64,000 bases of DNA from Arthrobacter sp. 260 (GCF_013116745.1 NZ_JABFOE010000006.1:62001-126000), one strand, 5' to 3'; positions 55,033 to 64,000 are shown, numbered from the stretch's first letter. Numbers and translations are program-made. Notes: generated from the sequence alone by a model not told the origin.

Positions 55033-56316
55033 CTACTGCGGGTCGAGTTCGCCCTCGCACAAGCTCCGCACGACGTCGGTCAGGACGTGAAGGCCGGTGA
55101 CGATGTCCTGGTCGGTGGTGTACTCGTGTTCGTTGTGGGAGATGCCTTCGACCGAGGGGACGAAGAGCATGACGGTCGGAACGATGTCCTTCATGTTGGT
55201 GGAATCGTGGCCGGCCAGGGTCTTCACCCGCGCATGACTGACGCCGCGGTTAGCTGTAATCTTCTCCGCGAGGGCGACCCCCTCCTCTTGGTAGGGCGTG
55301 ACCGGCCAGCAGTGGGAGCCGACCTTCTCGATCTTGGCCTGAGCGGAACGTTCGATCTCCTCGATGCGTTCGTGCAGCATTCGGTCTGCTTCCTGGAGCA
55401 GAGCTTCATCGGCTGAACGCAGATCCAACAAGAGGTTGACGCGGGAGGGAACGACGACGGGCGAGTTGGGGTAAACGTTCAGCTGACCCACTGAAGTGTG
55501 GACGGCCCCGTCGGGGAAGTGGTCGGCGATCTCCCGTGCAGCGACGACGAGCAAAGAAGCGCCGAGGAGGGCGTCATGACGGTCAGCGATGACCGTGGAG
55601 CCTGTGTGTGCCTGCTCTCCGTGGACAACGAATTCGTATTTGTTGGCGGCCCAGTTGGAGTCGACGACGCCGATAGCGATGCCGTCACGTTCCATGCTGC
55701 GGCCCTGCTCGATGTGGATCTCTGCGCAGTAAGCTGCCTGCGGACCGGTGCCTTCGCCGAGTGCGTTGGTCGATATTAGTGCCTCCCGGACGGTGATACC
55801 ACCGGGGTCGGTGCTATCCAGTGCAACGTCGGGGGTCATTTTGCCGGTGTAGACGGAACTTCCCATCATCGACGGTTTGAATCGGGATCCTTCTTCGTTG
55901 AACCAGTTCACGACTGCGAGGTTGTAGCGGGGGGTGACGCCGCTGGCTTGCCATTCGGCTGCGAGGCGGAACGCGGCGTGTGCTGCGGCGAGGACGCCAT
56001 AGGCTCCGTCGTAGCGCCCGGCCGTAGGCTGGGAATCGAGGTGAGAACCGACGACGACGTAGGGCTTGCCAGCTTCGAGTTCCAGCAGGCCAAACTGATT
56101 GCCGATCTGATCGAAGCTGACTGTGAATCCGTCCTTCGTCAAAAGCTGAGTGAACCAGGCACGCTGTTCCCCATCTGCTGTCGATCCGGCCTGCCGATCG
56201 ACTCCTCCACCGTCGGTGGCTCCAAAAGTGCTCAGCGTGGCGAAGTCCTTAAGGAACGAGGCGTCTGCCCCATCGAACCGGGAGGGGTCGGTTTCGGGTA
56301 CGGCACCATTGCGCAT
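55033..56316 (-). CDS. Hydantoinase/carbamoylase-family amidase (M20)
   Basis: A 427-residue metal-dependent amidase of the N-carbamoyl-L-amino-acid hydrolase/allantoate amidohydrolase family. Metal-site stretches: VVGSHLDSQPTAGRYDGAYG, VNWFNEEGSRFKP, EIHIEQGRSMERDG, and LAGHDSTNMKDIV; the dimer interface has GEQAHTGSTVI. It releases ammonia or carbamate from carbamoyl or ureido acids. It is convergent with the PucR-linked operon but fits the same nitrogen-scavenging theme. AAAGGAT lies upstream of the ATG. Confidence 0.9.
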   Translation of the reverse strand: MRNGAVPETDPSRFDGADASFLKDFATLSTFGATDGGGVDRQAGSTADGEQRAWFTQLLTKDGFTVSFDQIGNQFGLLELEAGKPYVVVGSHLDSQPTAGRYDGAYGVLAAAHAAFRLAAEWQASGVTPRYNLAVVNWFNEEGSRFKPSMMGSSVYTGKMTPDVALDSTDPGGITVREALISTNALGEGTGPQAAYCAEIHIEQGRSMERDGIAIGVVDSNWAANKYEFVVHGEQAHTGSTVIADRHDALLGASLLVVAAREIADHFPDGAVHTSVGQLNVYPNSPVVVPSRVNLLLDLRSADEALLQEADRMLHERIEEIERSAQAKIEKVGSHCWPVTPYQEEGVALAEKITANRGVSHARVKTLAGHDSTNMKDIVPTVMLFVPSVEGISHNEHEYTTDQDIVTGLHVLTDVVRSLCEGELDPQ

Positions 56317-56696
56317 CTAGCAGATCCTTTAACTGATTGGTAATTTCTCCAATCATCGCAGCGGCCCGTGCCATCAGCATTAGCCCGAAACAACTGGTTC
56401 CCTGTCGCTCGTTGTGCCCCTGCACACTTTCTGAGTGATCCACCTGTGCCCGATCCGATTCCCCAATTGTGGAATTGCTAGACCAGCGGCCAACCATGCT
56501 TTCAATAACGCCATAGAATCCGTTCAGTAGCGGTCAGCGATGAGGCTGTTGATCATCGCGCGCTGGATGTCGACCCAAAGACGCAGACACGCCCCCTGCA
56601 TAGGGCGGTCTAGTTTTCCGGCCCCCACCAACAATGTTCTAGGTGCACCCATGACGTATTATGCACAAGCATCTTCGCCCGATAAGATCGACCATC
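56317..56696. other. Intergenic region, carbamoylase to methyltransferase
   Basis: No convincing gene. The dyad GATTGG-N8-CCAATC (56335-56354) lies 18 bases upstream of the carbamoylase start and could be its operator. TAAGAT at 56683-56688 is a possible -10 for the methyltransferase gene, leaving almost no leader. The right half becomes A+T-richer, marking the left edge of the acquired region. Confidence 0.5.
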
Positions 56697-57791
56697 ATGA
56701 ACAGAGACGAGATCCGTGTGCTCGATCTGTTCGCCGGTGCTGGCGGGCTGACGGCCGGGTTTCACGCAGCCTCTCGAAAATTTAGAACCGTTGCAGCCGT
56801 GGAGATGGACCCAGCCGCTGCCGCAACCTATGAGGCCTCCTTCGGGCGCGGGATCATGCACACCGGCACGATACAAGGGTGGCTGGCCTCGGCCGCTATG
56901 CCAGACGGAATCGACATCCTTGTGGGAGGGCCGCCCTGTCAAGGTTTCTCGACGCTTGGAAAACAGCAGATCCAAGACGAACGGAATTCGTTGTGGAAAC
57001 AGTACGCCAGGACTTTACTCAAGGTTCGGCCGAAGTTCTTTGTGGTGGAGAATGTCGCTGCATTTGAAAAATCTCCTCAATTTGGACACTTCAAACTGTC
57101 CACGACGCCCCGGGGCATACTCAGAGAGTACGCATTCGAACACCGCGTTCTAAATTCAGCGGACTTCGGAGCCCCTCAAACACGCAAACGGACAGTCGTG
57201 ATCGGACACCACCGTGATCTTGAATTCCCCGGGTTCCCAGAGCCTACACACGCACGCGCAGGGGATTCAGGACTGAATCCTTGGGAGACCGTTGCGAACG
57301 TATTCTCGGGAGTTCCCATAAACCCCGATATGGACCATCTCCTGTCCGAGCGCATGCGCGAAAGGCAGGGCCAGCCTTACGCTGGCCCTTTCTCGCCTCG
57401 TGAACTTCACTGGAGTCGCAGTTATCGAGAGATTTCTCTCAGCCGATTCGCCGCGATCCCCGCAGGTGGAAACCGCTTTAATCTGCCGGACAACCTTAAG
57501 GCTGAGTGTTGGCGTAGACACACATCTGGGTCTGGGGATGTCATGGGCAGGCTGCATGCCGATCGTCCATCAGTCACCGTCCGCACGGAGTTCTTCAAAC
57601 CAGAGAAGGGCCGATACCTGCACCCCAGTGCGGATCGTGCGATCACCCACTACGAGGCTGCACTGCTCCAGGGCTTTCCCGAAAGCCATCGCTTCCTTGG
57701 CTCGAGAACATCCATAGCGCGTCAGATTGGAAACGCCGTGCCAATCCCACTAGGCAAAGCGATCGCTCAACAACTGGCGAGCAAAATGTGA
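56697..57791 (+). CDS. C5-cytosine DNA methyltransferase
   Basis: A 364-residue Dcm-type enzyme that methylates cytosine at C5. Motif I DLFAGAGGLTAGF (10-22), motif IV GGPPCQGFS with catalytic Cys81, motif VI ENV (118-120), motif VIII QTRKR (161-165), and motifs IX/X with QIGNAVPIPLGKAIA near 342-356. The target-recognition region between VIII and IX is about 125 residues; its sequence specificity cannot be read. The start ATG at 56697 has a short leader. No restriction endonuclease gene is adjacent; the convergent partner is the kinase-ATPase gene. It may protect host DNA from that system or be a solitary enzyme. Confidence 0.93.
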   Translation: MNRDEIRVLDLFAGAGGLTAGFHAASRKFRTVAAVEMDPAAAATYEASFGRGIMHTGTIQGWLASAAMPDGIDILVGGPPCQGFSTLGKQQIQDERNSLWKQYARTLLKVRPKFFVVENVAAFEKSPQFGHFKLSTTPRGILREYAFEHRVLNSADFGAPQTRKRTVVIGHHRDLEFPGFPEPTHARAGDSGLNPWETVANVFSGVPINPDMDHLLSERMRERQGQPYAGPFSPRELHWSRSYREISLSRFAAIPAGGNRFNLPDNLKAECWRRHTSGSGDVMGRLHADRPSVTVRTEFFKPEKGRYLHPSADRAITHYEAALLQGFPESHRFLGSRTSIARQIGNAVPIPLGKAIAQQLASKM

Positions 57792-57816
57792 ACTGTAAAC
57801 CATAGGGACGAAGAAC

Positions 57817-57832
57817 ATGGACTAGTGTCCAT
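57817..57832. other. 16-base palindrome between convergent genes
   Basis: ATGGAC-TAGT-GTCCAT touches the stop codon of the large kinase-ATPase gene. It lacks a T tract; possible weak terminator for the convergent pair. Confidence 0.4.
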
Positions 57833-60800
57833 TACGCATTCCGCTCGATAAGAAATACCCGAGTGCGTCCGTGACCCTGAGTGAAACGAGCCGTATCGAA
57901 TTGGTTCGGTCGCACATACCATACTTGGGAGAACTTCAGAGCACTGCTGGCAGCCGCCAACGCGACCGCATGAAGTTTCGATCCCGTTAAACCAACTTCA
58001 TAGTTAAAATTCTCCAGTGCATAAAACTCTTCATACGTTTCGCGAGCTGTGACCAACACATCTTCAGGGTTATTGCTGGATACTTCTCGGGCTCGAGAAG
58101 AATGGAAATCTTTAGCAGCGACTCGTGCCGCGAGGCGGGCCAGATCATCTCTCGGGGTCTTTCCAGAAGGGATCATAATTTCCACATGGTCATAGTCCCT
58201 CTCTTCTAATAGTGAGAACAACCGTTCATGTTTCGCGGAGCTTGAAGCAAGCAGTACTCTTCTACGCCCATCATCAACTTCTCCATCGTGTAACGGCACG
58301 AAGTGATACGGCCTAAGCTCGCCAGTCAGTATGTCATGACATGCTTCAAGCTTCGCGTAATCATCATCGAGCGTCGAATCCAATCTAGCAGCCACATCCT
58401 CGTTTAGAGGGTAATAGCGTTCGGCCTCCGTGTAAACGACAAGGACTCGCCCGTCCCGCCTAAGCAGTTGCCGCAATGCATCGTATAGAAAAGTCTTCGA
58501 CAGACCAGTGACATCGACTAGCGCTATGCCGTCATGGACTGATGGTGTGAGTTCAAATCGGCGGTCGCTCGCGATAGGTCTGACAGTACAACCACTTTCG
58601 TCCAACAAAGCCCTGGTTTCTGATCCAAAGCCATCAAGCGGATAGGTGACAGTGATCGCGATATCCGGGGTGAAGGCGTTTAGTAGCCGCTGCGTAGACA
58701 CAAAAGTTCGCTCCTCGAACCCCTGTGCTGTTACGAGGGTGTGCGGTTTAAGCTCCGCAATCTGATCGAGATCCAGTTCTAGGATCGAGGGGAAAGGAAT
58801 CGGCGCACGGAATGAAGCCTCGACAATGGATTCGGTATCAGACTCTGGAGACTCAGTTGGATCTTCGATGATGGTGTCGAACAGCATGGGATCCAAAAAG
58901 GACTCCGCAGTCGAGGCAGAAGAGAGATTCGAGAGCATCGGTGAAAGTACATATTCATCGTCTTCTTGAACAGTCTCACTTTTCGACGCAAGGTTGCGCT
59001 TTAAAAGGTTGCTTGATTCCCTTGGATTATCCAACCAATCGATAAGACTCTGCCCCGACAGTTCGAAACGATCGCGCTGTGAAAGCCCGATTGCATTTGA
59101 GAGGCCCAACAATTTTCGGAAGGTGAGTGTGTATTGAGCGACTGGGTCGGAATCCCTGGTTTTAGTTCGAGGCGTATCCGGGCCACCGGTAAGTACAAAA
59201 ACACCAGCGTCCATTAATTCTCGCAATTGTTGTAGCTGACGATCGGTATCGCCAGCGGTTACCCGAACGTAGACGCTTGCATAATCACGCAAGCGGGAAG
59301 GATTACGACGCGCTGACTGTATCAGAAGGTCGTGGGATGCCTTCGCGAAACCATCAGCGAAAAGCTTTAGTCGACCTGCACGTCGACTGAGCTGGTAAAG
59401 TCTTCGCGAGCAGAATTCTTGGAAAGCACTCGATTGGAATTTTGCCGCAACCGGCACTGCTTCGACTCTCCCTGCCTTGGAAAGAATCAATTCGTAGATC
59501 GAGATCACGTCGCCAATATCCCCGACGCATACGGCTGCGAGCGCACTCATCCCGAAATAGACATTCTTACGGTCCGGCGAGGAATTAGAGCTCGAAGCGA
59601 TCCCCCGGGCGATATCTACCAAAGGCTGGTCACCCATAACCTCGCTTGGCGACCAATGAGGGTGGGACCCCGTGAGGTTCGCGCGCTGTTGAAGTACTTT
59701 AGCAACGAAGTCGCGCCCTGCACGACCCTGTGAATCGCGTAGTTTCGCGTAAATTGCGGAGGCCAAGTCGAAATTATCGTAATCCCGTCCGCTTCTTGCG
59801 GTTTCAATAAGCCCGGGCGATTTCAGCACCAGCTCGAGCGTCTGTGCTTCCGTGGTGATCTTGAAGGCACAATTCTCATTTACGAACATGAGGCTCGACA
59901 GAAGCCGTCGGATTGACTCTTCGTTCAGGTGACGTGTCGATACATCGTCGAGAAGGAAAAGCACCCGGGCTCCATCCCATACCTCCGCGCACTCTGTAAC
60001 CGCCGCAGCGAGGCTGGGCATCGCAATCGCAGGGTGAGCGGTGAGTTGATATGCTTCCTCACCACTTTCGAGCGAGCGAAGCATCTCGTGAATTTTCCGT
60101 TCGAGAACATGGATGTTGTCTCCAGCATCAACCCCTGAACTCGTTACAAGCGAGGAGATAAGGGAGGCAATTGGTCGGGGGGCCACAGGACTTACTGCAC
60201 CACGGCCTCCTACTTCTGCCAAATGGCGTAAAGCTTGAAGTGCCTCTCTCGCATAGCAAAGGAACAGGCGTGTGTTCGGCTCGTGGAGTGGGCCGTCAGG
60301 CTTTCCTAAGCCATCCAGCAAGCGATTGCACGAGACATACAAGCCGATGTAGCCGTCTGCGCGCAGCGCGTGAAGCACAACCTCGCCCTGCTTCAGTTCA
60401 TCGATATCGCCCCCAGCCATGCTTGCACGCGCGTGAAACTGTAGCGCGCGAAGCAACATGGTCTTGCCGCAGCCTCGCATTCCCGTAATCACTAGGGGGC
60501 CCGATGATTCAATACGACTCTGCCATTCACCATCTGGGTCGACCAGAAGTCGAGGAACGAACCATGGCCGCATAGTCTGTGCGTTGAAGGAATCACCGAA
60601 TCGTGTGAGCCCGTCGCTAGGCTTCCTCCAGGGCGAGGACGCCGTGATAAACGCCAATCTGATGCTGGAAATCAAATCCGGATAATTCGGATTACGCTGA
60701 GTAATGTTGTCCGGCTTGAGCAAGTTGGCGATGTCGTTGAGCGCCAAGGCGAGCCTGAATTCAAGATCAGGCGACGCCATAGGATCAGGCATCACCTGCA

Positions 60801-61518
60801 AGGCAAGACGCATCAGGTGTTCGGTCACCTGGTGACTGTCCGCTTTCTGCGAATTCTCATCACTGCGGCTGGAGTCCAGCACAGAGCCCAAGTCGACTGC
60901 CACTGCCCGCGTGAACGGATCAATGGCGTCTCCCCTCTCGCGCTCAGGCGGCAGGCTTTCAACCAGAATATTGCCGCTGTGCAGGTCATTATGAAACACC
61001 TGCTTATTCTCAAGTTCCTGGAGCAGTCTCAGTAGGTCAACGGCTATCTGGGCAGTACGAGTGGCAGAGAGTGAATCCGCATGCTCGAGGACAGACCTTA
61101 GGGATTGCCCATCAACGTAGTCAAGCACTGCGACATGACAGGGCAACGTCTCAGATTCACCCTGGAAAAGCACGTCGGCGTCGAACGCATCGCGAATATC
61201 TACCAAATGCTGGGTGCCGTCAGCGACTTCCATATGCTGGCGACACTCTTCGACGAAGTCCTTGCCTCGCAGTTCATAGATCGATCGCGGTATAACCTTC
61301 AGACACACCTTCTGGCCGAGTACGCCCTGTCTCGCAACGTATGTCGAGCTATAGTAGCCTCGGTCAATTGACTGGACGATTTCGAAGTTTGACAGACCTG
61401 AAATAGGGGGGTTCGAGAGAGGATACCCCATAGTTCTACGGCAATCATCGCAGGGGTCTTCGAGCGACAAGTCGTGGTAGCCCAGCTTTGGGTGCCAAAA
61501 GCAAGTTAGATTGGTCAT
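57832..61518 (-). CDS. Ser/Thr kinase - P-loop ATPase - Rossmann-like sensor fusion (putative defence protein)
   Basis: A 1,228-residue soluble protein. Order: Cys/His-rich segment with Cys6/His9 and Cys23/Cys26; protein kinase domain (about 45-290) with glycine loop RGYYSSTYV, Lys74, catalytic loop HNDLHSGN (Asp178, Asn183) and DLG (Asp209) in place of DFG; P-loop ATPase (about 320-600) with Walker A GMRGCGKT (346-353) and Walker B VLFLLDDVS (Asp524/Asp525), STAND- or ORC-like; a helical region (about 600-840); an acidic linker (about 850-905); a C-terminal domain (about 925-1228) starting LVTAQGFEERTF and holding LTGSK (1177-1181), like the TGxK turn of CARF-type nucleotide sensors. The kinase residues look active. 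Start overlaps the phosphorylase-like gene by four bases. Defence role is inferred; I know of no named family with this layout. Confidence 0.8.
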   Translation of the reverse strand: MTNLTCFWHPKLGYHDLSLEDPCDDCRRTMGYPLSNPPISGLSNFEIVQSIDRGYYSSTYVARQGVLGQKVCLKVIPRSIYELRGKDFVEECRQHMEVADGTQHLVDIRDAFDADVLFQGESETLPCHVAVLDYVDGQSLRSVLEHADSLSATRTAQIAVDLLRLLQELENKQVFHNDLHSGNILVESLPPERERGDAIDPFTRAVAVDLGSVLDSSRSDENSQKADSHQVTEHLMRLALQVMPDPMASPDLEFRLALALNDIANLLKPDNITQRNPNYPDLISSIRLAFITASSPWRKPSDGLTRFGDSFNAQTMRPWFVPRLLVDPDGEWQSRIESSGPLVITGMRGCGKTMLLRALQFHARASMAGGDIDELKQGEVVLHALRADGYIGLYVSCNRLLDGLGKPDGPLHEPNTRLFLCYAREALQALRHLAEVGGRGAVSPVAPRPIASLISSLVTSSGVDAGDNIHVLERKIHEMLRSLESGEEAYQLTAHPAIAMPSLAAAVTECAEVWDGARVLFLLDDVSTRHLNEESIRRLLSSLMFVNENCAFKITTEAQTLELVLKSPGLIETARSGRDYDNFDLASAIYAKLRDSQGRAGRDFVAKVLQQRANLTGSHPHWSPSEVMGDQPLVDIARGIASSSNSSPDRKNVYFGMSALAAVCVGDIGDVISIYELILSKAGRVEAVPVAAKFQSSAFQEFCSRRLYQLSRRAGRLKLFADGFAKASHDLLIQSARRNPSRLRDYASVYVRVTAGDTDRQLQQLRELMDAGVFVLTGGPDTPRTKTRDSDPVAQYTLTFRKLLGLSNAIGLSQRDRFELSGQSLIDWLDNPRESSNLLKRNLASKSETVQEDDEYVLSPMLSNLSSASTAESFLDPMLFDTIIEDPTESPESDTESIVEASFRAPIPFPSILELDLDQIAELKPHTLVTAQGFEERTFVSTQRLLNAFTPDIAITVTYPLDGFGSETRALLDESGCTVRPIASDRRFELTPSVHDGIALVDVTGLSKTFLYDALRQLLRRDGRVLVVYTEAERYYPLNEDVAARLDSTLDDDYAKLEACHDILTGELRPYHFVPLHDGEVDDGRRRVLLASSSAKHERLFSLLEERDYDHVEIMIPSGKTPRDDLARLAARVAAKDFHSSRAREVSSNNPEDVLVTARETYEEFYALENFNYEVGLTGSKLHAVALAAASSALKFSQVWYVRPNQFDTARFTQGHGRTRVFLIERNA

Positions 61519-62726
61519 GGCCTCACAACCTCCAATATTTGGTTAGGCACCGCTGACGGTACCGCACCAACAGTAAACGCTTTAGATTCAAATTCGCCGA
61601 CTACATGATCATTATCGTTTGACCGGATCTCTAAAATAGCCTCACCTCGTCTAACTCGAAGCCCGGGTGGGCAAAGGAGGCGGACGCCAACCTGGTCCGG
61701 GTACCGGGCGACATGGCCGTCCGATCTTGTCGCCGCAGTAGCATTTCGTTCAATGACAATCCGCCTTATACTTGACAAATCGTAGGTAACGAAGCCCTCA
61801 GATTTTGAATAGATTTTCCTTCTCTTTTCTTCGGCTACCGACTCTACTCGTCGTTGAAGGTTCCCGATAGAAGAGCCCTGAGCGTGAAGAAGGCCTTCCG
61901 TAGACGCGAGCATTCCACTCCCTCCATTCTTCCGCGAGACCAACTTCACAGAAGGGGCCTGTGCCGTCACAATGGAGGCGATTTCCTCGCACATCTCAGC
62001 ATGGGTTTTCAGCCATGGGTCCCGCACCTCCCCGGTCACTACCATCCAGTAAGCCGTCAAAGCCTCCCCTCTCCCTATATAAGGCTGGTACGGTACAGTC
62101 GCGTCTGTTATCACCACTACTGGGCTTAGCCCAAGCTCCAGCGCGACACCGCAGTAGATTTCTGAGTTTTCACGAGCCTGACCTAGTTGGCTCCCAAAAT
62201 TCCCAAATCGCGCTATTCGTGCTTCAAGACCAGCCAATCGCACGCCTGCGGCCACTTTCTTCGCTAGCAGGCTTGCAATTGCGAGGGCAGGGACCGCTTG
62301 CGTTCCACTCTGCTGACGTAACCGGAACAATGCAGCATCCGCGGGGGCCCATGTCTCATCAGCGACAACATGTGCGTAATGGGCTTGCTTGAGCGTTCTC
62401 TCGAATTCGCGTTTAGATAGGCTGGTCTTGTAATTCGGGACGGTGCCGAGAACGTCGATCCCACCGGCCGGTCGACCAACAACCCCTATTTTCGGCACGT
62501 CGAGACCCGCGTCAATAAGGTGTAACGGGCAGAGAAGTGTTGCAAGTGAGCTCGGTCCGCCAGTTGACGCGACGTCCGCACAGTTCGCGCCTTTAGTCCT
62601 GCAGTGTCCGGATTTGGCGAGGAGGAATGCCAATTCAGCGATCAGCGACACGTTCGTCCCCTCGCTCAGTATCCTGGTATAGAGGTCAAAAACCGGGGCT
62701 GATACCACGGCACTACTTATCGTCAT
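61515..62726 (-). CDS. Thymidine-phosphorylase-like protein with altered phosphate site
   Basis: A 403-residue protein of the pyrimidine nucleoside/AMP phosphorylase family (GT3 fold), with a C-terminal PYNP_C-like domain (about 330-400). Conserved: DVASTGGPSSLAT (51-63), WAPADAALFRLR (126-137), and the base-binding trio Arg137, Ser152, Lys156 at the spacing of Escherichia TP Arg171/Ser186/Lys190. Changed: the DKHSTGG phosphate-site Lys and catalytic His are Val52 and Ala53, and the GRGLGHTGGT loop is shortened to GRPAGGIDV. It may bind a nucleoside without ordinary phosphorolysis or use another acceptor. First gene of the operon with the kinase-ATPase. Confidence 0.82.
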   Translation of the reverse strand: MTISSAVVSAPVFDLYTRILSEGTNVSLIAELAFLLAKSGHCRTKGANCADVASTGGPSSLATLLCPLHLIDAGLDVPKIGVVGRPAGGIDVLGTVPNYKTSLSKREFERTLKQAHYAHVVADETWAPADAALFRLRQQSGTQAVPALAIASLLAKKVAAGVRLAGLEARIARFGNFGSQLGQARENSEIYCGVALELGLSPVVVITDATVPYQPYIGRGEALTAYWMVVTGEVRDPWLKTHAEMCEEIASIVTAQAPSVKLVSRKNGGSGMLASTEGLLHAQGSSIGNLQRRVESVAEEKRRKIYSKSEGFVTYDLSSIRRIVIERNATAATRSDGHVARYPDQVGVRLLCPPGLRVRRGEAILEIRSNDNDHVVGEFESKAFTVGAVPSAVPNQILEVVRP

Positions 62727-62740
62727 GAGCTGATCTCATC

Positions 62741-62810
62741 AGAATATCCAAGAAATAGCCATGCCAACCTGGTCTGCTGAAATCTGACATGCGCATGGAT
62801 CGCTCAGCAG
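62741..62810 (-). promoter_or_regulatory. Promoter and nested dyad upstream of the phosphorylase-like gene
   Basis: On the minus strand TTGGCA (62767-62762) and TATTCT (62746-62741), spacer 15, are a plausible promoter with a short leader. Just upstream, CTGCTGA (62774-62780) and TCAGCAG (62804-62810) flank the palindrome CATGCGCATG (62788-62797) almost symmetrically. This would suit a dimeric regulator. Confidence 0.45.
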
Positions 62811-63209
62811 GACTAAAATCATTATCCAATCCCATATGACCCGATCTACACCTAATTTGCAGTTAGGAGAGGCTGGGGAGTCGCCCCGCCCTAATCGCTG
62901 GGATTTAGTACATGGAAAGTCACAGCGACGTCTCGCCGGTTCCACTTCTGAACAACTTGAGTAGCGCAGGCTCAAGAAGTCAGCCCGTGTGCTCTAGACG
63001 GTCAATAGAAAGAGCACCGAGCGACTGTCATTGCACATCTCGGGAGCAGATAAACCAGCTCACTCGATCTGGAAGGGGATCTATACGCTGCAGGGCATCC
63101 AGTCGATCGCTACATGCGCGAGATTGAACTCCTGCGGCGCGGCGCTACCTTAGAGACCGTGATGGTGATCTGATGGGCGGCCCGGTGGAAGAGTCACTCA
63201 CCCGCAGGC
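62811..63209. other. Non-coding or eroded region right of the defence-like operon
   Basis: No supported gene. One plus-strand frame ends in about 30 ordered-looking codons (from 63080, with RYMREIELLRRG, stop near 63173) but is closed upstream by a TAA at 63053 and has no start or ribosome-binding site. It may be the eroded tail of a lost gene. Confidence 0.4.
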
Positions 63210-63663
63210 CTAGTTGGTGCGGCGCGCTTCGGATTTGCATAGAAACCGACGATCCCGCCAGGCGCCGGCGGACCACAAGGCCCACACCACCAGGACCGGC
63301 TGAAAGAAGAGTCTGGTGAGACGCGATGCGTCAGTATCCAAGCCGAATGCGTCGACGCCGTCGACGTACTGGGCAATGTTGCCCAGGAAGACGGCCACGA
63401 AAAGCGCCGCGACGATCCACCCAATGGGGACCCGCCAGCGTGGGAGGAAAACGAGCGCAGCGCTCAGGACTACTTCGGTGATGCCTTACGTGACAACCAC
63501 AAAAGTCTGTGTCGAGCGGCATCCACGCGGGAACCTGGGCCGCGAACTTGACGCGAGCAAATGACACGTAAGCCGTCGCAGCGAAGAGCAGGAAGACGGC
63601 CAGCACAATGCGAGCGATGGTCCGGGGCGGGGACAGCGTGGGAAGGTCAAGATTTTCTACCAC
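63210..63663 (-). pseudogene. DoxX-like membrane protein, frameshifted and with a stop
   Basis: Two frames join into a small membrane protein with about four helices: RTIARIVLAVFLLFAATAYVS and the KFAAQVPAWMPLDTDF loop in the first, GITEVVLSAALVFLPRWRVP and FLGNIAQYVDGVDAFGLDTD in the second. The layout resembles DoxX-family proteins. The frame changes near 63517 and an in-frame TAA follows four codons later, so the gene is dead unless both are sequence errors. The start is probably GTG near 63663. Confidence 0.65.
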
Positions 63664-63861
63664 CCGAGGAAGCCTAGAACCGGCGTCTGACGACCGGGGG
63701 CCCCCGGGCGCCGCGATACCCATGCAAGTTACGGGGCGCCGGGGAGCGACTCGTAGACGATGAGGCCTTTGCCCTAGTCGATCGGGCAACTTCAAGTAGT
63801 AGGTAAGTATTTCTCGTACCATTTATGCGCTCAGCACACCGGCCATAGCGTCGCGCTCGGC

Positions 63862-64000
63862 CTATGTAACCCACTGACCGTGGATGGATTTGTCCGAGAT
63901 CTGACGCAAACATAGGGGCGGCAGTAAGGAGGTGTTCGGCGGCAACCAGGCGGCGTAGCCATCACCCTTTTGGCCGTTGATCAGGCCGTCTGCGGCGTAC
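63862..64000 (-). CDS. C-terminal fragment of a gene entering from the right (partial)
   Basis: An open minus-strand frame from the window edge to a TAG at 63862-63864, about 45 codons. The first half (YAADGLINGQKGDGYAAWLP) looks like genuine protein with a repeated Tyr-Ala-Ala pattern; the second half does not, so it may be truncated. No family assigned. Bases 63664-63861 show no gene. Confidence 0.3.
   Translation of the reverse strand, partial: YAADGLINGQKGDGYAAWLPPNTSLLPPLCLRQISDKSIHGQWVT

Follow-up and report, generated by a model that had tools for sequence, protein, structure and literature searches.

A C5 DNA methyltransferase, a thymidine-phosphorylase-like protein and a CARF-kinase-ATPase protein as a putative defence module of Arthrobacter sp. 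260

Related systems and the locus in Arthrobacter sp. 260

The CARF_STK_AAA proteins (CARF6, PDLC01925 in PADLOC) are an already known family, because their architecture was described in 2014 as a Zn ribbon, a kinase, an AAA ATPase with an arginine in the P-loop and a CARF domain; the Zn ribbon was named as such, and kinase-mediated signalling was suggested (Makarova et al., PMC4012209). In the accessible part of that paper the family is treated as a single protein with kinase-mediated signalling only, the word "phosphorylase" is absent and the partners reported below are not mentioned. In that part of the source, neither partners nor a pathway are given for the family listed since 2014; the module presented here supplies a conserved set of partners.

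A C5 DNA methyltransferase is shared with Mza, which further comprises MutL-like, Z1, DUF4420 and AIPR proteins, and in several relatives of the locus Mza-type genes are continuous with its three genes. However, no PF10593 (Z1) gene is present in the host genome, and to our knowledge neither a thymidine-phosphorylase-like (TP-like) protein nor a CARF-kinase is a described part of Mza. The CARF fold also occurs in effectors of type III CRISPR systems (Can1, Can2, Csm6, Cam1, Cad1), of which Can1 with its two CARF units is the best match. In contrast to these, the unit has no Cas10 partner, and its output consists of a kinase, an ATPase and a separate TP-like protein instead of a nuclease, a pore or a deaminase. 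The methylation-linked or anti-phage Ser/Thr kinases of MADS and PD-T4-6 are similar in the kinase domain only (1e-7 to 1e-13), whereas the remaining domains and the partners differ (MAD6, 29 bits in comparison to a cut-off of 460). With PrrC, which guards EcoprrI, the unit may share the principle of an arrest factor that lies latent and is linked to R-M; the proteins are different, because a CARF-kinase occurs here with a TP-like partner.

A preliminary description made from the sequence had called the unit unrecognised. This stands for the three-gene system with its partner set, which is apparently undescribed: no report of a TP-like defence gene or of a CARF-kinase-methylase system was found in the literature, an earlier mention in the 2020 CARF classification being possible. 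It does not stand for the largest protein, which shares the Zn ribbon, the kinase, the AAA ATPase with P-loop arginine and the CARF region with the known family and matched the PADLOC model PDLC01925 over its full length of 1228 residues, from residue 1 to residue 1226 (E=0, 1603 bits).

The window, i.e. the whole stretch of 64,000 nucleotides that was analysed (GCF_013116745.1 NZ_JABFOE010000006.1:62001-126000), contains the following features.

56661..57791, plus strand: C5-cytosine DNA methyltransferase, 376 aa (364 aa with the start at 56697; PF00145, 5e-58)
57832..61518, minus strand: CARF_STK_AAA protein, 1228 aa (PDLC01925; present in 49 further carrier genomes)
61441..61503, minus strand: Zn ribbon of the CARF_STK_AAA protein (C6, H9, C23, C26)
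60622..61395, minus strand: Ser/Thr protein kinase domain, residues ~42-299 (PF00069, 1.7e-8)
59260..60594, minus strand: ORC-CDC6-like AAA ATPase, residues 309-753 (PF24389, 9.7e-23)
57832..58755, minus strand: C-terminal CARF sensor region, residues ~922-1228, according to the model with two Rossmann-like units (motifs GFE, D1002, R1099, GLTGxK)
61515..62726, minus strand: TP-like protein, 403 aa (NCBIfam match, AlphaFold2 model, Foldseek)
56331..64000, no strand: foreign island, running on past the window end through BREX (blastn of congener flanks)

All three ORFs are intact. The end of the TP-like gene and the start of the CARF_STK_AAA gene share an ATGA overlap of 4 nt (61515-61518), and the methyltransferase gene converges on the latter across a gap of 40 bp (57792-57831); ORFs, strands and distances agree with the preliminary description, and so does the higher A+T content of the unit (GC 52-56% in comparison to ~65% in the left part of the window). 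Synteny with three congeners breaks at 56316-56330, between a metabolic gene (55033-56316) and the methyltransferase gene, as determined by blastn of the congener flanks. The decayed genes noticed earlier to the right of the unit are limited to ~2.7 kb holding only small or decayed ORFs, and a complete BREX locus follows, starting ~1.4 kb past the window end (window-equivalent 65398 to 78369; L131:15398-19990, L132:47-8369). All six BREX genes, BrxL, PglZ, PglX, BrxC, BrxB and BrxA, gave high scores and lie on the strand of the TP-like and CARF_STK_AAA genes. Since they continue to the right of the unit, past the decayed stretch, the three genes are one end of a defence island. Neither an Rfam match nor a tRNA was detected near the unit, and scans for promoters and terminators around it gave no signal above chance. 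Between 56.3 and 65.4 kb no restriction endonuclease cognate to the methyltransferase was recognised; endonuclease families are very diverse, and one may lie elsewhere.

Two further ORFs were observed outside the unit. A 147-aa ORF without an assigned family lies between the TP-like gene and BrxL (L131:14057-14500), and just past BREX a protein with S-layer homology, GmrSD C-terminal and Excalibur domains is encoded (L132:10519-12057).

Domains and active-site residues

In the CARF_STK_AAA protein, Pfam profiles recognised a protein kinase (residues 46-187) and an ORC-CDC6-like ATPase (residues 309-753). The kinase residues K74, E91, D178 (the catalytic Asp), N183 and D209 are invariant in 27 homologues, regardless of the presence of a TP-like gene. 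The same applies to Walker A (GMRGCGKT, with the Lys K352 and an arginine in the P-loop), to Walker B (LLDD; D524, D525) and to the CARF motif residues D1002, R1099 and K1181, and the C-C/H-C-C pattern of the Zn ribbon is kept in nearly all of these homologues. Judged by its residues, the Ser/Thr kinase is of the active type, and the invariance of D178 and K352 agrees with the earlier claim of an apparently active kinase combined with a P-loop ATPase.

A sequence search with the C-terminal region against PDB chains yielded nothing convincing, and therefore a comparison of folds was needed. The C-terminal 334 residues (895-1228) were modelled with AlphaFold2 from an alignment of 25 homologues (pLDDT 90). 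Among solved structures compared by VIA-align, Can1 reached a Z-score of 14.3 over 237 residues, followed by Can2 (11.9), Csm6 (11.7), Cam1 (11.6) and then Cad1; generic Rossmann proteins reached 6-7. The Foldseek rows with the best E-values, generic proteins that superposed with poor rmsd, were set aside, and the CARF rows showed probabilities near 1.0. According to the model, the C-terminus is a CARF sensor region; the Rossmann-like C-terminus proposed before is correct with regard to its two Rossmann-like units and has to be specified as CARF. Two CARF-like units within one chain are suggested because the Can1 alignment covers both halves of the model. The accessible part of the 2014 paper (PMC4012209) lists a wHTH beside CARF for this family; compared in this respect, the model of residues 895-1228 shows two alpha/beta units.

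The TP-like protein gave its best NCBIfam match with an E-value of 1.6e-21 and 76.5 bits, far below the curated cut-off of 269, and its AlphaFold2 model (pLDDT 92) matches human TP and bacterial PyNP over the complete fold (Foldseek E 7e-22, TM ~0.75), so that the preliminary assignment is borne out by sequence and fold. With the thymidine and pyrimidine nucleoside phosphorylases (1brw, 1azy, 2j0f) it further shares invariant R137, S152 and K156, which align with R168, S183 and K187 of 1brw, taken here to be the base-binding triad, as well as the Ser and Thr of the STGG loop (S83 and T92 of 1brw, S54 and T63 of the TP-like protein). In contrast to these enzymes, K81 and H82 of 1brw, presumably the phosphate Lys and the catalytic His, are replaced by I/V/L/F and A/P, respectively, in every aligned member. 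The sites of S110 and T120 (1brw numbering) are also altered, and the family possesses a new invariant GRPAG loop and the new invariant residues R85 and D91. As far as can be judged from these residues, the pyrimidine pocket is likely kept, and a DeoA-type phosphorolysis of thymidine is unlikely because the catalytic His and the phosphate Lys are lost. The earlier suggestion of a TP-like, nucleotide-acting partner is retained, with the restriction that it is unlikely to work as an ordinary phosphorylase.

Among 396 actinobacterial genomes, the TP-like family occurs only in that of the window (449 bits; next best 133) and only beside the CARF_STK_AAA gene; the host additionally possesses an ordinary housekeeping thymidine phosphorylase (G000:C22). 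Thirteen viral contigs matched a TP motif. Matching phage proteins were only 24-33% identical to the TP-like protein, which is the level of ordinary phosphorylases.

Distribution, partners and neighbours

Carriers were sought in 84,980 species genomes by the Walker A motif MRGCGKTM, and all carrier counts are conditional on this one exact motif. The search yielded 59 loci, from which 49 genomes were confirmed, resulting in 50 carriers together with the window genome. Contexts of 20 kb were analysed for 50 loci, with a Loktanella plasmid replacing one carrier on a very short contig, and neighbours were identified by a simple ORF search, with profile scans for a selection of the genes. The carriers belong, among others, to the Actinomycetota, Pseudomonadota, Bacteroidota, Acidobacteriota, Thermodesulfobacteriota, Myxococcota, Bacillota and Planctomycetota and to the archaea. 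Conservation at one site in all relatives or a match to a housekeeping operon, named in the preliminary description as arguments against its proposal, was not found: the CARF_STK_AAA protein occurs only in the window's genome among the 396 actinobacterial genomes, and the 34 congeners searched lack the unit and gave kinase-domain matches only. Relatives of the protein were not found in viral contigs and phage records, and the Loktanella record is the only plasmid record with the gene. In Bathycorpusculum (L127) and Ramlibacter (L129) the CARF_STK_AAA gene is broken or split.

The TP-like gene is present in 34 of the 50 loci and in all 34 lies directly upstream of the CARF_STK_AAA gene on the same strand (28 overlapping); it is absent from 16 loci, most of which show no obvious replacement beside the CARF_STK_AAA gene. 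Pairwise identities of the CARF_STK_AAA protein correlate with those of the TP-like protein (r=0.83) and of the methyltransferase (r=0.62), and 0 of 2000 permutations gave a value as high in either comparison. For the same pair of loci, the TP-like protein is usually less conserved than the CARF_STK_AAA protein (58% vs 80%; 74% vs 90%).

The methyltransferase has intact motifs (PCQGFS, ENV, QTRKR, GNAVP) and matched DruM2 / MTase_II of PADLOC (1e-92) as well as PF00145 and TIGR00675 above their cut-offs. The model suggested in the preliminary description gives it no role. It is no bystander, however: a C5 methyltransferase is the most constant partner of the CARF_STK_AAA gene. Of the 50 genomes, 37 have one within 5 kb of this gene, and the number rises to 39 at 10 kb and to 43 at 20 kb, whereas ~0.6 of 50 genomes would be expected within 10 kb, given how many C5 methylases a genome contains. 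Several carriers without it are represented by short contigs or contig ends. In one locus (L106) the enzyme is exchanged: the CARF_STK_AAA protein is 78% and the methyltransferase 30% identical to their kin, and a C5 methyltransferase still lies beside the CARF_STK_AAA gene. Cellulomonas pakistanensis shows two C5 methylase matches in one frame of 814 codons, convergent with the CARF_STK_AAA gene and with DUF4420 and Z1 genes beyond (L083:11516-13717).

The neighbours of this core vary. BREX lies beside the unit in the window locus and in L089, DISARM DrmA/DrmE-like genes were detected in L086 and L112, and Mza-type MutL, Z1, DUF4420 or AIPR genes in about 10 loci, several of them in one run with the three genes. 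An NaeI R-M system adjoins the CARF_STK_AAA gene in L021 and L122, and Vsr genes are present in 16 loci. Other neighbours are HATPase-type restriction genes, a type IV enzyme (L120), a Gabija-like helicase (L128) and phage-type integrases. A core that stays constant while the defence genes around it change is the pattern expected of a mobile defence module, in agreement with the defence association suggested before. In the TP-less Rhodobacterales L021 and L122, a small protein with a C-terminal membrane segment is encoded between the CARF_STK_AAA gene and the NaeI-type R-M genes (L021:15623-16117, L122:8332-8883).

In two Pedobacter loci (L094:12272-13519, L096:6728-7984), a putAbiC-family protein with predicted N-terminal membrane helices fills the TP slot with an equal 4-nt overlap, and the CARF_STK_AAA proteins of these loci are nested among TP-bearing relatives. 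The TP-like protein is probably an exchangeable effector, because this AbiC-like membrane protein takes its slot. Since the other TP-less loci show no evident replacement, the kinase may also act alone, or the TP-like protein may be an accessory signal enzyme.

With regard to the source of the CARF ligand, neither a SMODS CD-NTase match nor a Cas10 match above the cut-off was obtained in the host genome (G000). Among the carriers, eight possess SMODS matches above the cut-off and two (G479, G484) strong Cas10 matches; only these two were counted as real Cas10, because GGDEF-type proteins apparently also match the Cas10 palm profile. The ligand must usually come from a source other than Cas10 or a SMODS CD-NTase, since strong matches occur in a minority of the carriers only. 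In Algoriphagus, a CD-NTase (SMODS) gene lies ~4.5 kb from the CARF_STK_AAA gene (G468:C3:1176491-1176961).

Proposed function and alternatives

A defence function of the unit is very probable. We propose a C5-methylation-linked abortive defence module, in which the CARF-kinase switches on a nucleoside-acting effector (rough probability of the full chain 0.6). Such a module would combine a C5 DNA methyltransferase with a switch, formed by the CARF-kinase-ATPase protein, and with an effector that can be exchanged and is here the TP-like protein; it would move horizontally and plug into larger defence loci. Starting from the observed gene coupling, co-divergence, intact motifs, folds and defence context, we infer the rest of the chain as follows. 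Infection, or the failure or action of an accompanying methylation-dependent restriction, would produce a nucleotide-type ligand, to which the C-terminal CARF region would bind. Remodelling or oligomerisation of the protein by its AAA ATPase would follow, and the Ser/Thr kinase would be turned on. The kinase might activate its co-translated partner (the TP-like protein or, in other loci, the AbiC-like membrane protein), and this partner would bring phage growth to an end; probably it would act on pyrimidine nucleosides or nucleotides, sequester them, or halt the cell. Self DNA would be marked by the methylase, keeping the trigger off in uninfected cells. The relay of sensor, ATPase and kinase proposed in the preliminary description would fit the CARF, AAA and kinase domains.

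The position of the unit next to BREX, DISARM, Mza and NaeI R-M points to an accessory that DNA-modification defences share and that would serve as their backup. Several points become testable: the ligand read by CARF in cells without Cas10 or CD-NTase, the relay of a CARF signal by a kinase, and the role of the TP-like protein after the loss of phosphate chemistry.

The strongest alternatives, both of which overlap with the proposed module, are a guard of an R-M system and a TP-like protein that makes the signal. In the first case, the CARF-kinase would keep watch over a companion system (C5 R-M, Mza, DISARM or BREX), comparable to PrrC and EcoprrI, and arrest the cell upon inhibition of that system or upon DNA cutting by it, and the methyltransferase, as the companion's modification enzyme, may belong to companion R-M systems and not to the module. 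The adjoining NaeI genes, the Vsr genes and the uninterrupted run of methyltransferase, TP-like, CARF_STK_AAA, MutL-like, Z1, DUF4420 and AIPR genes in three Bacteroidota loci (L090, L093, L115) argue for such a guard. However, the window and further loci, for example L095 and L098, contain the three genes without a recognised C5-dependent nuclease adjacent, the host genome has no Z1 gene and BREX has its own methylase PglX; a guard function is possible, with a probability clearly below even.

It can only tentatively be considered that the unit is a self-contained immune system, in which C5 methylation is the self mark, the ATPase-CARF-kinase protein reads a ligand made by neither Cas10 nor a CD-NTase, and the remodelled TP fold makes or answers the signal. 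If true, this would be a new nucleoside-based immune pathway.

In the second alternative, the TP-like protein would split off or transfer the base or sugar of a pyrimidine nucleotide and thereby generate the CARF ligand, and the kinase would be the toxic output. Base-releasing enzymes have been proposed as makers of second messengers in other conflict systems (PMC7159879), which counts in favour of such a role. The invariant R137/S152/K156 together with the changed phosphorolysis residues fit a new reaction, the ligands bound by CARF domains are nucleotides, and neither cyclase family searched (SMODS, Cas10) regularly accompanies the module. Against it, 16 loci keep the CARF_STK_AAA gene without a TP-like gene, and the AbiC-like protein in the same slot of L094 and L096 looks like an effector; this role of the TP-like protein is unlikely.

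It is rather doubtful that the TP-like protein is a catalytically dead sensor, which would bind a nucleoside, restrain the kinase and release it when infection shifts the pool of pyrimidines, among them 5-methylpyrimidines that stem from the breakdown of methylated host DNA. The loss of the phosphorylase catalytic residues with the pyrimidine pocket kept would be compatible with this, and so would the constant C5 methylase and the gene overlap, which suggests translational coupling. On the other hand, the new invariant residues R85 and D91 suggest a reshaped and not a dead active site, and the TP-less loci have intact kinase motifs.

A metabolic or regulatory operon is highly improbable: the TP family normally functions in nucleoside salvage, and a regulatory role is possible for kinases and CARF proteins, but the host has a separate housekeeping TP, and the unit is spread sparsely and patchily over phyla in a defence-island context.

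A Cys-rich family was additionally observed beside the TP-like or the CARF_STK_AAA gene in three loci (L103:4823-6484, L104:8239-9900, L109:7272-8549), with a C-terminal CHAT domain in L103 and a GGDEF-like sequence in L109.
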